A DNA stretch of 14,478 nt, from NCBI GenBank assembly GCA_900404475.1, contig OUQQ01000532.1, positions 1-14,478 on the forward strand, given 5' to 3'. Position numbers and translations under genes: made by a program. The notes beneath the pieces were generated by a model. That model was not told the origin of the DNA, searched no databases, and saw only the letters and a program-made list of their open reading frames with translations. The stretch comes from Spongospora subterranea (taxonomy: Eukaryota > Endomyxa > Phytomyxea > Plasmodiophorida > Plasmodiophoridae). Positions 4,093 to 12,279 of the stretch are shown one piece after another; position 1 is the first letter of the stretch; every line of letters starts with the position of its first letter.

Positions 4093-7000
4093 TTATTCAG
4101 CTGCTGAATCAGTAGGTAAATTGTTGGAAAACGTCGTATCACTGGGCAGACGAAGCGGCAAGCAATGGGGATCGCCCGGGGTTCGCGTCGACGAGCCGGC
4201 AACCCCGAGATTTGATTTCGATTCGGAACCGATTTTGCGGATGAACGCCTTGAAGACATCGCGCCCATTCAACAGGTTCTTGATCCTAATTCGCTCATCC
4301 TCCAAGTGCGACTACGACAACCACTAAATCCCTCATCGTGTGACGCCATCAGGTCGAACCGATATCAAAACAGAACAGTCGTCTTTGAAGTAAACGAAAT
4401 AATTTCGAAAAAAAGCACCCAAAAAAGGTTAGAAAGAAAACTTTTAAACAAAGATAACAAACGTTCAAAGAGAGGAATCAAAATCGGTGTCGTTTGAGAC
4501 CTGATCTGACGCCTGGCCGAATGCAAAATGTACAGCTGGAGCGGCAAGAACGTCTTCCAGAAATCGAATCGTGGCCAAGGTGCCTGAAGTTTTGTGATTA
4601 GGTTGATCGTGGCATCAGGTCAAAAAGGCGCCAACCTCCTTCCCGAATAAATAATGGCGAGACACCCCAAACTTCGGCGATCGCCGCCACAGCGGCTTTG
4701 AACCTAATCGATGAGATTCAGCACGACGACGGTTTGCGGCGTACAATCGTTGCAAACCCGGCGCATTCTGGATCGCCAATCCACCAATCCGCTTCACGAG
4801 CTGTCTTAACCGACAACGTATTACTGGATTCCAAGCGATTGAATTCCTTCGTGACGTGGGCGGTAAACAGCTTCGCGATCTGACGATTCATCATCGGGAT
4901 AAGAGAATGTCGTAGACTTAACCCATCAACGAACACGACAACCGTCGTGGAAGAACTTCACCGTACCTGGGACGATTTTTGATTCGGCGTTGTTCGCATC
5001 GATACGCTGGCTTTGACAGAGCTGCTGATGATCGATCCTGATTGTTCCCTGTTCTTGTGCAGATTCTCAACCGAATGGATACTCAGTGTTGGCCGTCTCC
5101 AACGGCATTGCAGGATCGACGTCACATCTAACACCCGACGGATTTGAAATCGGAACATGAACACGCCATATAATTGCTCAAACCGTTGAATCTGAGCTTT
5201 CCGATCCCAGTTTCCTCTCTATAAGCGTCGATGTCGAAATCAGTTTCCGCGTAATAGCTTTCTTCCAGGGGCGAGATCTCGTCAACGCCATCGTAGAACC
5301 CGTCGATCAGCACGTTACCGTCACGGTCAATCAATGTGGAAAGAACGTGAATGGCGTCGGTTAACGGCTCGTGAAACGCTCCCCCGTGGACGCCTGAACC
5401 ACGACATCAGCCTTGCGCGATCCATCCAGAAAAACCCAGATTTTACCGGAATGCAAATCTTGTGATAATCCGCCAATCTCTAGAGTCATCGACACGATTC
5501 CTCGCGTCCCATAGCTGAACGCATTGTCTGATCAGACGATCGGCGGGTTTAGCCGGAAACAACAACCGAACGTACTTTAGACATGGGCGGACCTGACCAG
5601 ACCACACTGTATTGGCCAGCACCACGACCGTCGGATTCGCTAACCATTCTAATGGCCATAAATGAACCAGTGGACTTGTGGTAGATAATCGCTCAAAAAA
5701 AACTAAAACCAAAGAACAAAAAAAACAGGTCAAAGTTTTTTGTTGGAAATTCGGTGTAATTCTGCCCACCCATTGCGGATTGCACTGCGATACAGAATCC
5801 GCCCTTGAACGAATCCGTTTCGCCTTCACCGTCGAATATCATGACCACATCCGATGGAAGGCCTCCGTCCTCCGATATCAGTTCCTGTGCGATTGTTTGG
5901 CGTTTGTGTGTGTGTGAAGGAAACAGAGCCCTCCCCCGACCTTGACTGCATAGATGAAGGCCGCCAATGGGCCTTTGTTATCTGACGCGCCACGACCGTA
6001 CAGATACCCATTTCGTCCAGATAAAGTGAATGGAGGGACCGACCATTGCGATTCCACAACTGCAGAACTCAAAACCTCAGCGAAACCTCCAGAAATCAAC
6101 AGAGAAGGAATGGAGTGACAGAAAAAAAGCTGAAAGCGTCGGCAAAATTTAAGAGAGAAAGCGTTGGCGAAAGAAAACAAGGTGAAAGCGTCGACGAAAG
6201 GTGTTAATTTCGTCATGAAACCGACAAAAATACGTGGAGGAAACACAAAAATAAGCTCGATTCGAACCTGGAAATACATCATAATGCGCATAGAAAACGA
6301 CTTTGGGTCGAATCGGATCGTTCGAAAACGACGACAATTTGGCGATCAGAATCGGGTTGGAATCGGGGTTCACCTTAACGTCGGAGTGATCAAATCCAGT
6401 TAGGCGGCGAGCTCTTGTTCGGCGATGAACCAACCTGACGAAGCCTGGTCTCCGCTCCCATCTCCAACAAGCACTGCTCGATGAATCGAGCACAGTTCCA
6501 CGCTTCCGTTCGCTTACCTAGGAGAACCGTCAACGAAACCAGATTAACGGGTGGACGTTTCTGAATACTTGGATCAGAGCTGACGGTTTCCATTCCAACG
6601 AGCAATTGCAGAAAATGTATCAGATCGTTGTCGTTGGTGTTCCTCTGTGTGTTGTGCGAGAGACGGTCGATCATCGCCACAATCTGTCGTGCAAGGTGTC
6701 AATGTGGGTCTTATTGAACACTCTGTTTTCATTGGGCTTTGACCTTGCGTCGAGTCCCCAGCGGGATCCCGACCTGCTCCAGATCCTGATCGTTCAGCAG
6801 CAGGAGCGCCTCAAGATCGATCTAACTCCAACGCTCAGCGTAGGGTTACGGATCCAGACCGCGGGACAATCACCTCATGTTTGGCGAATAGATCGGCGTA
6901 TCGTTCGGCGCCGGCGCCAGCTAGCAGTTCAGAAAACGTAGCACTGCACGACACGACGGGCGTCGCTCTCAGTATCCTAATCAGATGCAGGTCATGATTG

Positions 7001-9029
7001 ATTGCTCCAACCACAGGGAGGTTAATAGAGTCAAACAATTGAATTCAGAGGTCAGACAGATTCGGTTCCCCAAATTAAAAATTCTCTGAACCGAGATTAG
7101 GGGCAACGGATATAACATCCGCATTAACCAATTAGATAACTGCGGTTCCCGGCAACAATTCAATAAAAAAAATGATGAAAACGGTGTTGAAAGCGTGAAA
7201 GCGCAAAGGAATATCGATCGAATCAGGAAACAACTTTGTTCGTTTGGGCTTCTGAGCTTCTGAAACATTACAAAGCAAAAAAACAAAACAATTGAACGAT
7301 AACACCATTTGATTGGATTCGGTGATCGGAAGCGATTGACTTACCCGCAGATGGGGGTCCTTGGTTTGGTCGCGGGATTGAAAAACGCCACGCCCGTTGG
7401 GTCTTCGTTCCTCCAGACCGTGATTGCCGAGTCGGTTCCGCAGCTGAATAAGAATTGTCGATCGCGGCATATAAACAGGGTCGTCCACGACGAACTGATC
7501 CTATGGACGCCATTCAACACATGAACATGGCACCATCGGGACGGAACTCGCGTACTTCCCGTGGCCGATTGGCCGGAACGTTTGCAGGTCCAACGCCTGG
7601 ATGGCGTTGTCGCTGGTCGACACGAACAGGGCGCTGTCCGCTATGCACGTGGCGATAATGGCGGCGCCCAGGTCAACGGACCGGACCAGATGCCAGGAAT
7701 CGAGACCCCATAACTTGATACTGTTGTCGCGACTGCCTAAATGAACAAACAGCTAATCTCAGCAGTGGATCGTCCATAAAACCTCAGGGATCGCTCGTAG
7801 GAACAAATTAAAAAAAACGATCCGCGAAACAAAATTTTGTACCCAGAGGAGACGCAAAAAAATCATTTCGCAAAATGTGAAATAAAGTTCGAGATGAAAA
7901 AGGTTTCGGGGGAAGAACGAAGCATTTTTCAAAACACCGGCGGCGTAAAAGAATAATTCTAGGAAAAAGTGAATTCGCAAGGATACCGGATATGAGATAT
8001 TGATCGGGGATAACAGCGAGCGATGTGACACTATCAGTATGGCCGACCATCGTCTTCAGGTACTCCATCGTCCGACAGTTCCAGACACCGATGGTGAAAT
8101 CGCCGGAGCCGGTGAACAGCAAGTCCTTCACCACCGTCAACGAATACTGACGAAGATCGGGAGACTTAGAACGAGATGTCGATTCGACATATTAAGGGAA
8201 AGACGCACGATGAAGCCGAGATGATGGGTGAAGAATTTGCAGAAGCGTTGGGCGTCGACGGCGGTCTCGTTGGCGACGGCAATGGGAAGCGACGCCAGGT
8301 CGACCGTCATGACATGGGTGTCGAGACACCCGGCGAACATCTGACTCCGGTCAAGGGCCAGGTCGAACGCGCAGCAGCCCATATTCTCCAGGACGTTCAG
8401 CAGCTGCATCGAGACCGAGTTCCAAATCCGGATCGTGTTGTCCCGAGCTGTGCACGAAAAAAAAACAATGAGATGGGAATTGGTCGGAGCGTTTAAGAGA
8501 GAACTGAAACCCAATATCGCTAAAGGAACAATAACAAGAAAACGGTGAAATTTCGAGAATTTGAGCGGAAGGGGTAGATATGGAGGATGAAAAAAAAGTT
8601 TGGCGAGATCTTACAGGCACTGATGAGCATATAGAATCCATTGATGGCGTTATCGGACACGATCATGGACGTGATCGGACGGCGATGTCCATAGAGTTCA
8701 CACTCAAACGAGAACGTATTCAGCTCCTGTTTTGGGGAATATCAGCGGGTGTGTGTGTCGAGACCGGAGAATTTGTCGTCGTTTGCCAACCCAGACGATA
8801 ATCAGCCCGTCTTGATCGCCGCTGAACAGGCGGTTTGTCCGACGCGATACAACCAGCGACAGCCTGGAAATCAACGGTCGGTCACGTCATGAAGAAACCC
8901 GGCAACAGAATCGCCAACATACACGGAATCGTTGTGGCGCGCGAGGACATGTTCAACACGCAGGATGGATCCATAGGGTCGGAGCGGCTCGTGAACCGTC
9001 GCTGGCTTATTGTCCAGGGCGGTCGTCAT
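4093..9029 (-). CDS. Dug2-like WD40-SAM-M20 protein (22 exons, about 920 aa)
   Basis: Exons: 9029-8923, 8863-8791, 8726-8615, 8447-8209, 8146-7987, 7736-7556, 7500-7345, 6976-6874, 6821-6744, 6683-6557, 6517-6435, 6373-6268, 6059-5941, 5884-5770, 5648-5576, 5514-5447, 5393-5184, 5127-4967, 4879-4758, 4703-4636, 4583-4501, 4311-4093. Phases agree at every junction. Start context is CACCATGA. Residues 1-345: seven WD blades (LFSGDQDGLIIVWEL, SASRDNTIRIWNS, FTGSGDFTIGVWN, ISGSRDNSIKLWG, SCGTDSAITVW). Residues 350-412: SAM domain. Residues 415-890: M20 peptidase fold with FYAHYDVFP (His503, Asp505), YGRGASDNKGP (Asp535), DGEGETDS (Glu570), YGTRGIVSMTLEIGG, LHSGVHGGAFHEPLTDAI, IREGG, and SDQSHLEDERI (His850). 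WD40 plus M20 is the layout of yeast Dug2 (878 aa), which with Dug3 breaks down glutathione and related gamma-glutamyl peptides in the cytosol. No Dug3 gene is in view. Two of the usual active-site positions are changed (Gly569, Asn599). The intron 6556-6518 is only 39 nt, in frame and open, so it may be coding. An AATAAA overlaps the stop. Confidence 0.85.
6744..6976 (-). other. SAM domain encoded by exons 8-9 of the Dug2-like gene
   Basis: Exon 8 (6976-6874) and exon 9 (6821-6744) encode FSELLAGAGAERYADLFAKH, then EIDLEALLLLNDQDLEQVGI and PLGTRRK, continuing into exon 10 as IVAMIDRL. This fits the sterile alpha motif pattern along its whole length: a first helix with an L..Y...F spacing, the ID..LL.L...DL core, GI..G.R.KI, and a final hydrophobic helix. 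SAM domains mediate homo- or hetero-oligomerisation or RNA binding. The phase-2 junction into exon 8 (donor 7345, acceptor before 6976) and the phase-0 junction out of exon 9 (donor 6744, acceptor before 6683) keep the WD40 and M20 parts in one frame. A WD40 propeller followed by SAM is also known from WDSUB1, but no U-box is seen here. Confidence 0.85.
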
Positions 9030-10032: not shown

Positions 10033-10666
10033 CACGAGAAAACGAAATCAAATAGACGACAAATCCGCTCAGCGATTTCGGGAATGCCCATCATGAGCGG
10101 AAGATGCTGTTTGGGTTCCGGTTATCAAATGACTCATCTGGTATTGTCGTGACGTATTACAGTTGATCATTGTTCTTATGGAATAAATCCACTGCAGTTG
10201 CAGGATGGATTGATTTTTGACACTTGGAAGATGTCCAGAAGACAGTTTATGCGTCGATTGCCTCCTTTGAAATGGCGTCAGTTTTCATCGATCATGCCAT
10301 GGCGATGTCAATCAAGCCACTTACTGAGACGCAACCGCGCTGTCTGCATCAATATCAAGTACTTATTGTGAATTGAATTGCTTGAGGGTGTACGCCGTGA
10401 CAAAGGTCTTGCGAAGGAGCAGCATCACCTTTCGTCCCAGTTTGCAGCCTCAACGACAGTTTGGATACTGTCGAGAGAGGTTATCTTCTGTTTGAATCGT
10501 TTATCACTCTTTCACGTTGATGAAAAAGTAGCCCGAGTTTTTCGCTCTAATTTTTGTTTTTTAGCGTAAAAAGGTCACGACGAAGACACATATTTTGAAC
10601 AACCGGATTGTAATATTGACAAGTAGATGGGGATCAGCAGACAAAACATGGATTCACACGTGTTTT
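10033..10666. other. Divergent upstream region without a clear gene
   Basis: This is the promoter side of the His-rich gene. A plus-strand open frame at 10378-10569 reads AASTTVWILSRE and later LFHVDEKVARVF. The HVDEK stretch and the preceding helix-turn-helix-like segment resemble, weakly, pieces of the mariner transposase found at 12901-13735, so it may be an old remnant. No splice pattern supports a real gene. No TATA-like element was identified with confidence. Confidence 0.3.
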
Positions 10667-11090
10667 AACACGCGATCGGTTCTCACTTTTCCTGTTTAAC
10701 AGACGGTCAATTCACGCGTTTTCCTGTTTTAGGAGGTAGATTCTCACGTTTCATGATATTTAACTGGAGGTAGATTCTCACGTTTCATGATATATAACAG
10801 GAGGTAGATTCTCACGTTTCATGCTTAACAGACGGTCAATTTCACACGTTTTCCTGTCGTTTCATGATATTTAACAGGAGGTAGATTCTCACGTTTCATG
10901 ATATTTAACAGACGGTCAATTTCACACGTTTTTCTGTTTTAGGAGGTAGATCTCACGTTTCCTAATTTAACAGACGGTCAATTTCACACGTTTTCCTGTT
11001 TTAGGAGGTAGATCTCACGTTTCCTGATTTAACAGACGGTCAATTCTCACGATTCCTGTTTTAGGCGGTCGATTCATACGTTTCCTGATT
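10667..11090. repeat. Minisatellite, about 14 units of about 30 bp in two versions
   Basis: Two related unit types follow each other. Type A has the core ACAGACGGTCAATTTCACAC followed by GTTTTCCTG. Type B has the core AGGAGGTAGATTCTCACGTT followed by TCATGA or CCTGA. Both can be aligned to a common GG..GATTCTCACGTTTC.TGA consensus. The order is roughly an irregular first unit, then A, B, B, B, A, a truncated unit, B, A, B, A, B, A and a diverged last unit, so the 3' half alternates regularly as a 60-bp higher-order repeat. Units are directly adjacent without unique spacers. The array ends about 170 bp before the PA28-gamma start codon and could be part of its promoter. Confidence 0.9.
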
Positions 11091-11171
11091 TTTCAGAGTT
11101 GTTTCAGGATATAATTGCGTGCGTGACGGAGTTTGTTGGGTTGTGTATTGCTCAGCCACAATCGTCTACAG

Positions 11172-11177: not shown

Positions 11178-11259
11178 CGATCGACGATCTTCATTTCTAG
11201 GAAATTACATGCGATCGTGAGCCGAATTCGACTGAAAGGTTCAAGAAACCAGTTTGGAA

Positions 11260-12279
11260 ATGTCGTCAGCAGCTTCAGAGCGTGACGCTAGTCATATGGC
11301 TGAGAGTGCAGCATCGATCGCGGCTGCAACGATCGGAGCCGTTCAGATGGGTGAAGATGGGCGGCCAATGGAATTGTCTTCCCTCAAGGATAGTATATCG
11401 GATCAGGCCAAAAACGTCATTGAAAACATCATGCCGATGAAGGTCATCAGATTAACGGATCTGTATAAGGTTTGTGCCCCTGCGCTCATTTTGATTGAGA
11501 ATACTTATTTATTGATAGTCCCAACAGAATTCACAGCGGTCTTCCCATGATATCCTGGAAAGGACACCGAAAGGCGCCCTTTCTAATAAGGTCAACAATT
11601 TGGCCGTGGTTTTGCTAAAAAAATATTCGTCCTTATATATGCCGTACAGGGAGTCACTGAATTGCTGGAGACAATGAAGGTCGAAATTTTGGAGCTAATT
11701 CAGCATCTGGATATTCTAAAACTCTGGTGAAGGACAATTTTTACTTTTTTTTTAAACCTTACAGGTGCTTAAAATAGGGTTCAGCTCAATATTCCGAGCA
11801 TCCAGGATGGAAACAATTTTGGCGTTTCGATTCAAGAAGAAATCGCTGGAATGTTGGAATCTGGAAAGAGCAGCGGTCTAAATTTTCTTGATACTGTCGG
11901 TTTTTTTCAATTTGATTAATATTTGCTGATTTGTATTTTGCCAGTTCACAAAGTACTATGCCACTCGAGGAAAGATGATTACCAAAGTACAATGTGTAAT
12001 AGTGCAATGTGTTTTCCCTAATGCATTTTCAGATGAATAAGTATCCAAACGTGGAGGATTATCGACGTGGAGTCGGCGAGCTTGATGAGAAGAAACATTT
12101 ATTGCTTCGTCATTGCTGTCTGGATTTACGTAATAACTACGCCGTTCTGTACGATATGGTTAGTGGAAATCACACTGAGTGTACATGAACACTTATGCTT
12201 TCTGGCTCAGATCACGAAAAATAAAGATCGACTGGAAAGGCCTCGTGGACACGGAAACCATACGTCCACAATGTATTGA
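11260..12279 (+). CDS. PSME3: Proteasome activator PA28-gamma / REG-gamma subunit (7 exons)
   Basis: Subunit of the heptameric 11S cap that opens the 20S proteasome without ATP or ubiquitin; PA28-gamma is the nuclear form. Exons: 11260-11469, 11528-11590, 11650-11726, 11778-11895, 11945-11986, 12033-12158 and 12211-12279 (TGA 12277-12279), all in phase, 234 residues. The C-terminal half carries the family signatures: LDILKLWVQLNIPSIQDGNN, then FGVSIQEE (the activation-loop region), FLDTFTKYYATRGKMITKM, NKYPNVEDYRRGVGELDEK, LRNNYAVLYDMITKNKDR and the C-terminal STMY tail that docks into the 20S alpha ring (the human protein ends in LY). Helix 1 is present (SLKDSISDQAKNVIENIMP), but the N-terminus is rich in Ala and Ser and the homolog-specific linker is short, 20 residues shorter overall than the human 254. 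The donor of exon 4 (GTCGGT) is unusual, yet it is the only one that keeps the conserved spacing. The minisatellite precedes the gene. Confidence 0.93.

Follow-up and report, generated by a model that had tools for sequence, protein, structure and literature searches.

A Dug2 homologue with a SAM domain between its WD40 propeller and M20 half in the plasmodiophorid Spongospora subterranea

The yeast Dug2p-Dug3p complex is reported to cleave glutathione (PMC6508711), and yeast is described as using gamma-Glu-Met as a sulfur source via Dug2p/Dug3p and Ecm38p (PMC7617739); the DUG route has been called fungus-specific (PMC9012958) and termed "fungal-specific" (PMC6508711). No description of the DUG pathway in protists was found among the best matches of the literature searched. 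Here we analyze a gene of the rhizarian Spongospora subterranea, contained in a 14,478-nt contig (OUQQ01000532.1; hereafter the window, that is, the whole stretch of DNA analyzed), that encodes in a single chain an N-terminal WD40 propeller, a SAM domain and a C-terminal M20A domain. We regard its product as a variant of Dug2 to which a SAM domain has been added, and not as a novel type of enzyme. It shares with fungal Dug2 the N-terminal propeller, the C-terminal M20A domain, an Asn at the position of a metal-binding Asp of M20A enzymes (Asp195, below) and the company of a separate Dug3-type gene, but differs in carrying a SAM domain between the propeller and the M20 domain (linker of 102 aa against a median of 18 among 98 WD40-bearing relatives), in having Gly in place of the catalytic Glu, in belonging to a clade separate from the fungal proteins and in its rhizarian host organism. 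The other architecture that invites comparison is that of WDSUB1 (WD40-SAM-U-box), which likewise has WD40 followed by SAM, whereas the Spongospora protein has an M20 domain, and no U-box was detected either among the 25 Pfam families shown of 37 or in the precomputed domain list of the database copy of the protein, where it was looked for under what we take to be its accession. A relative of WDSUB1 was ruled out, given that no U-box was found and that the M20 part groups with Dug2.

The WD40-SAM-M20 gene is real, conserved and intact. It consists of 22 exons on the minus strand, and its spliced translation is identical, letter for letter over all 916 residues, to the Spongospora subterranea protein A0A0H5R413 (P0001, 916 aa), which is in both uniref and eukprot, is listed without a genomic contig and presumably derives from the Spongospora transcriptome reported as deposited by PMC4471660. 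The 21 introns of this 916-aa model are 51-368 nt in size. Exons were traced by eye and joined by script; a preliminary 927-aa trace, with 21 GT-AG introns in consistent phases, differs from the 916-aa model at the donor of intron 1, the acceptor of intron 4 and both ends of intron 15, and the two share the start (9029), the end (4093), the 22 exons and the three splice junctions around the SAM exons. The original prediction had proposed one 22-exon frame with agreeing phases, the junctions 7345/6976, 6874/6821 and 6744/6683, and a SAM domain at residues 350-412 between the propeller and the M20 domain of a Dug2-like protein. Its start, end, exon count and phases stand, the three junctions are exact in the model identical to A0A0H5R413, the SAM domain maps to residues ~354-411 of the 916-aa protein with SAM_1 over the Pfam cut-off, and both the domain order and the grouping with Dug2 were recovered.

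The longest of the 21 introns, intron 7 (368 nt), is the one that parts the WD40 exons from the SAM exons, as might be expected if WD40 and SAM-M20 were two genes and the fused frame an artefact of annotation. This is scarcely credible: P0001 is continuous across intron 7, the Plasmodiophora brassicae protein P0002 joins the last blade to SAM at the equivalent place, and the same blade-SAM join, read by eye, is present in the metagenome fragment P0333; moreover, the phases agree, the open frame 6835-7044 that holds the first SAM exon lacks an ATG, and WD40 followed by M20 is also the order in fungal Dug2. Two separate genes are ruled out by P0001, P0002 and P0333. Nor is the join between SAM and M20 a splicing artefact, because exon 10 encodes both the final helix of SAM and the beginning of M20.

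The Pfam scan of the whole protein was made on the preliminary 927-aa model, and its residue numbers are those of that model. In that scan, SAM_1 matched residues 372-425 (E 4.3e-11, 43.4 bits vs. a cut-off of 23; 49.3 bits vs. the same cut-off in a second Pfam test of the SAM domain), and Peptidase_M20 (E 5.7e-23) and WD40 (E 4.9e-21, with four stretches passing) were also over their cut-offs; by eye, the propeller has seven blades. Relatives were counted among the best 120 of 414 matches of a protein search; 98 of these, with >120 residues aligned before the SAM position, were taken as WD40-bearing, and the remaining 22 lack WD40. The same WD40-SAM-M20 architecture was found in P0002 (936 aa) and, with a weak SAM, in P0003 (metagenome, 818 aa). 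A profile search (best 120 of 192 matches) added P0333, a 289-aa fragment that covers 27% of the query at 71% identity and comes from a contig of 1,085 bases; its Pfam matches are SAM_1 and SAM_2 only, and its last blade and M20 start were recognized by eye. P0002, named 'SAM domain containing protein' in the databases, is 60% identical to the Spongospora protein in the SAM-M20 region and 57% in the full-length alignment, shares its replacement of the catalytic Glu by Gly, and differs in a longer N-terminus; no functional description of P0002 was found in the literature searched. SAM is conserved to about the same degree as the remainder of the protein, given that identity between Spongospora and Plasmodiophora amounts to 54% for WD40, 57% for SAM and 62% for M20. 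The linker from the last propeller Trp to M20 spans 99 aa in P0002 and 77 aa in P0003, and is ≤73 aa in 94 of the 98 WD40-bearing relatives. Literature searches with SAM, M20, WD40, peptidase, Dug2 and plasmodiophorid terms yielded no description of a WD40-SAM-M20 protein, in line with the original prediction, which knew of none; two such proteins are nevertheless already in the databases as 'SAM domain(-)containing protein'.

A tree of 38 chosen proteins trimmed to M20 (midpoint root; P0333 left out) places the Spongospora protein within a Dug2 group of 33 rows (support 100/97), with the CNDP rows outside. The SAM-bearing proteins and P0241, an M20-only fragment, form one clade (98/93), and the fungal side forms another (25 rows, 15 named fungi and 10 unnamed; 100/100), joined to the SAM clade by a weaker branch (91/79). 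The Spongospora protein is homologous to Dug2 and belongs to a clade of SAM-bearing proteins distinct from the fungal one. It has the N-terminal WD40 and C-terminal M20A in one chain that define Dug2, and departs from the plain WD40-M20 architecture in the presence of SAM; in our view, absence of a third domain does not define Dug2, and we file the gene as a variant, because the SAM-bearing proteins branch inside the Dug2 group. A recent transfer from fungi is ruled out by the fungal-side rows forming their own fully supported clade without plasmodiophorids. Four further proteins, P0004 (EukProt) and the metagenomic P0016, P0017 and P0019, have a Dug3-type amidotransferase fused to WD40-M20, that is, a covalent Dug2-Dug3 pair. 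They resemble the Spongospora protein in the Dug2-type WD40-M20 part and in a changed catalytic Glu (Cys in one, Gly in three), and differ from it in the amidotransferase at their N-terminus, in that no SAM was found in them and in forming a separate clade (100/97). Next outside Dug2 (92/80), before CNDP under the midpoint root, is P0242, an M20 protein named as coming from a Kariarchaeaceae archaeon; by eye, it keeps the motifs EGEEE and MDNYW.

The SAM domain could be a passenger, a neutral insertion into the linker with no part in assembly. Fungal Dug2 functions without it, and long linkers occur in the Dug2-like proteins P0019 (206 aa), P0017 (73 aa) and P0016 (70 aa), whose domain lists contain no SAM. 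The conservation of SAM between the two genera at the level of the flanking domains and the grouping of the SAM-bearers in one clade argue to the contrary, and we regard the passenger explanation as quite unlikely.

The closest solved M20A enzyme is yeast Dug1 (4g1p, E 1.4e-60); a cytosolic non-specific dipeptidase matches at 2.7e-59. To our knowledge, neither CN2/CNDP2 nor yeast Dug1 has a WD40 or SAM domain; they share the M20A fold with the Spongospora protein and, in the three alignments examined, differ from it by retaining Glu at the catalytic position as well as Asp195. In the alignment to solved M20A enzymes, DGEGET of the Spongospora protein stands against EGMEES and LANTVW against ISDNYW. 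Eight active-site positions were compared, including Asp101 and His228, which we take to belong among them. For CN2, the reported metal ligands are His99, Asp132, Glu167, Asp195 and His445, and the reported catalytic residue is Glu166 (PMC6271292); His228 of the second chain is described as sitting at the ligand (PMC12655758). The equivalents of His99, Asp101, Asp132, Glu167, His228 and His445 are kept in all 98 WD40-bearing relatives. At the Asp195 position, 97 of them have Asn and one has a gap, so that Asn is found in 97 of 97 alignable sequences; at the Glu166 position, Glu is found in 92, Gly in five (P0001, P0002, P0016, P0017, P0019) and Cys in one (P0004). The 22 relatives without WD40 all have Glu at the Glu166 position, while at Asp195 Asn occurs in 21 and Asp in one; five of these were placed in the tree, and they look like partial Dug2 records because they fall among fungi. 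Within this sample, Asn at Asp195 is thus a mark of the whole family, and a changed Glu166 is a mark of the plasmodiophorids and the Dug3-fused line.

An active M20A peptidase has the catalytic Glu and five metal ligands; in the Spongospora protein, Glu166 is replaced by Gly and Asp195 by Asn. Judging from these replacements, the M20 half is probably no peptidase, and we read it as a non-catalytic dimer and substrate scaffold. The earlier description of a Dug2-like protein stands, whereas a peptidase activity of its M20 domain probably does not, with Asp195 changed to Asn and Glu166 to Gly. The alternative, a still active M20 domain making this a single-chain WD40-SAM-peptidase that acts on Cys-Gly or other dipeptides, draws on the clear similarity to solved dipeptidases and on the six retained active-site residues; we consider it highly unlikely with Gly at Glu166 in both plasmodiophorids and Asn at the Asp195 ligand, both being active-site residues in CN2 as described (PMC6271292).

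A partner for such a scaffold was sought in the 20.6-Mb assembly (679 contigs, with the gene studied here on contig C127), as the original prediction had proposed. With the amidotransferase part of P0004 as query, one exon match was obtained at C392:13932-14090 (60% identity, E 1.7e-14), from which a Dug3-type gene was traced at C392:13498-15054 (L019 1067-2623): 13 exons and 315 residues, with the 3' end not followed and one exon boundary near residue 40 uncertain. The protein begins with MCRLLVYKG, is 52% identical to P0238 and matches GATase_4 (E 8.6e-17, 61.4 bits vs. a cut-off of 23). Because the genome has this separate Dug3-type gene starting with Met-Cys, a Dug2-Dug3 gamma-glutamyl hydrolase in Spongospora is likely as judged from the sequences. 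Named non-fungal eukaryotes among the best 120 of 1215 matches to the amidotransferase query are Nannochloropsis, Guillardia, Haematococcus, Helicosporidium, Ostreobium and Chlorella; in view of these six and of the EukProt fusion P0004, the DUG pathway may be wider than fungi. Genome searches with the GGT, OPT and ChaC families gave no match, at a low sensitivity at which the PF13230 family search also missed the gene on C392. The CNDP2-like query P0116 yielded two hits within the studied gene and a weak one on C314, which do not establish a Dug1 equivalent. Further M20 matches of this genome, on C134, C500 and C409, resemble by eye M20D amidohydrolases and an ArgE-like protein.

The SAM domain of the Spongospora protein matches 20 distinct Protein Data Bank (PDB) sequences at E ≤0.01; among them are Bicc1 (4.1e-9), ANKS4B, USH1G, ANKS6, Polyhomeotic, a Polyhomeotic-like protein, ANKS3, Scm, tankyrases, a SHIP2-EphA2 fusion and DGK delta. 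The Plasmodiophora SAM as query gave 6 PDB matches. The nearest solved SAMs include several polymer formers: Bicc1 SAM is called self-polymerizing (PMC6056059), and the SAM polymers of ANKS3 and tankyrase are described as having an acidic mid-loop (ML) surface and a basic end-helix (EH) surface (PMC4105859, PMC4980433). In segments cut by eye, and counted without a control set of non-polymerizing SAMs, acidic/basic residues number 6/1 in the mid-loop of Spongospora, 5/3 in Plasmodiophora, 7/2 in P0333 and 5/1 in P0003, and 0/3, 0/3, 0/3 and 1/2, respectively, in the end-helix. This charge pattern fits self-association of SAM, although it is no proof, and head-to-tail polymerization would proceed through the ML and EH surfaces.

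The original prediction had suggested that SAM could either oligomerize the enzyme or tether it to a partner. The SAM domain might instead be a heterotypic tether that binds the Dug2-Dug3 hydrolase to another SAM protein, localizing the enzyme rather than polymerizing it. Beyond this gene, the genome has 12 SAM matches that pass the family cut-off, and they lie on 11 other contigs; the closest sequence matches of the Spongospora SAM include those of USH1G and ANKS4B, and SAM heterodimers have been described (PMC4105859). Yet the joint presence of the acidic mid-loop and the basic end-helix fits self-association; we find a tether somewhat unlikely.

What is observed directly is the domain architecture and how it is conserved, together with the changes in the active site and the Dug3-type gene. 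From there, we propose a Dug2-type scaffold subunit in which WD40 binds Dug3, a non-peptidase M20 dimerizes and holds the substrate, and SAM links the units, a reading for which we see an about even chance. By analogy with yeast, the WD40 propeller would bind Dug3, and the N-terminal Cys of Dug3, an enzyme of the class II amidotransferase type, would attack the gamma-glutamyl bond in glutathione or in gamma-glutamyl dipeptides. The M20 half, having ceased to be a peptidase, would dimerize and hold the substrate, and SAM would build larger assemblies by joining (Dug2-Dug3)2 units head to tail. The likely purpose would be the release of Cys-Gly and glutamate from host glutathione. Genes for the uptake of sulfur and nitrogen are reportedly missing from both plasmodiophorids (PMC4471660), and P. 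brassicae is said to lack those for uptake and assimilation of inorganic sulfate (PMC4815078); given the reported lack of sulfur-uptake genes, scavenging of host glutathione by the Dug2-Dug3 complex is a plausible purpose. More tentatively, and on the doubtful side, we suggest that plasmodiophorids may polymerize a Dug2-Dug3 glutathione hydrolase through SAM into a filament or cluster, with the pseudo-peptidase half holding the substrate and Dug3 cutting it, and that they would have retained this enzyme as a route to host organic sulfur; in this version, the SAM insertion would predate the split of the genera, and the catalytic Glu of M20 would have been lost separately here and in the Dug3-fused line.

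Several points weigh against a scaffold of this kind. Within the SAM clade, P0003 keeps Glu166, as does P0241 by eye, and the Spongospora M20 domain itself retains 6 of the 8 active-site positions compared. The SAM of P0003 scores 20.7 bits, below the cut-off of 23, and is 29-31% identical to the Spongospora and Plasmodiophora SAMs (27-28% for WD40 and 39-41% for M20). The SAMs of USH1G and ANKS4B are known chiefly as binders of other proteins. The proposal leans on yeast roles that come from Kaur et al., who in 2012 reportedly found that Dug2p lacks peptidase activity, binds Dug3p through WD40 and dimerizes through M20. The partner could be an EgtC-like enzyme instead of Dug3: P0004, in its amidotransferase part, scores against the EgtC model of bacteria, TIGR03442, as well (177 bits vs. 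a cut-off of 218.65), and the best 120 of 1215 amidotransferase matches include bacterial proteins and name none from Plasmodiophora; we favor Dug3 because of the company of Dug2 and the fungal matches at about 47%. Finally, the low-sensitivity search of the genome revealed no OPT importer.

Of the new results, three stand out most strongly: a change at the catalytic Glu that is shared, the presence of a Dug3-type gene in this genome, and a clade of SAM-bearing proteins that lies outside the fungi. An obligate rhizarian parasite of plants has genes for Dug2 and for a Dug3-type subunit, the former with an extra association domain and a peptidase half that looks dead, which makes it testable whether the M20 fold of Dug2 is only a scaffold and by what means parasites whose sulfur-uptake genes are reported missing obtain cysteine.

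Table 1. Features of the Dug2-like gene, with positions in the window
Feature	Position	Strand	Basis
Whole gene, 22 exons, 916 aa, Dug2 homologue, WD40-SAM-M20	4093..9029	-	Translation identical to P0001
Exons 1-7, N-terminus and WD40 propeller (seven blades by eye), aa 1-342	7345..9029	-	Pfam, spliced translation
Exons 1-7, individual coordinates	9029-8923, 8863-8791, 8726-8615, 8447-8209, 8146-7987, 7736-7556, 7500-7345	-	
Intron 7, 368 nt, GTAAGT donor, TTAG acceptor, between WD40 and SAM exons	6977..7344	-	Join present in P0001
SAM domain, aa 354-411, over exons 8 (6945-6874), 9 (6821-6744) and 10 (6683-6660)	6660..6945	-	Pfam
M20 domain, aa about 423-876, exons 10-22	4216..6626	-	Pfam, structure-sequence alignment
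His499 codon, equivalent to CN2 His99, metal ligand kept	6284..6286	-	Alignment; ligand list as given in PMC6271292
Gly565 codon, position of CN2 catalytic Glu166	5822..5824	-	Alignment; residue as given in PMC6271292
Asn595 codon, position of CN2 metal ligand Asp195	5611..5613	-	Alignment; ligand as given in PMC6271292

Elsewhere in the window, a gene for a ribosomal protein S5 of the bacterial/organelle type, probably mitochondrial, lies at about 160-1168 on the plus strand (Ribosomal_S5 and S5_C over cut-off). Coiled-coil-like open frames were noted by eye on the minus strand at about 1.3-3.7 kb; three pieces tested gave no Pfam family over cut-off. Degenerate tandem repeats (a 62-nt unit in 3.5 copies, along with other units) occupy 10661-11092. 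At about 12.9-13.6 kb, pieces with the reading HVDEKWFYLTK look by eye like relics of a mariner-type transposase, and a piece tested had no Pfam match. An open frame at about 11236-11470 on the plus strand weakly matches the N-terminal domain of the proteasome activator PA28 (19.2 bits vs. a cut-off of 21.2).

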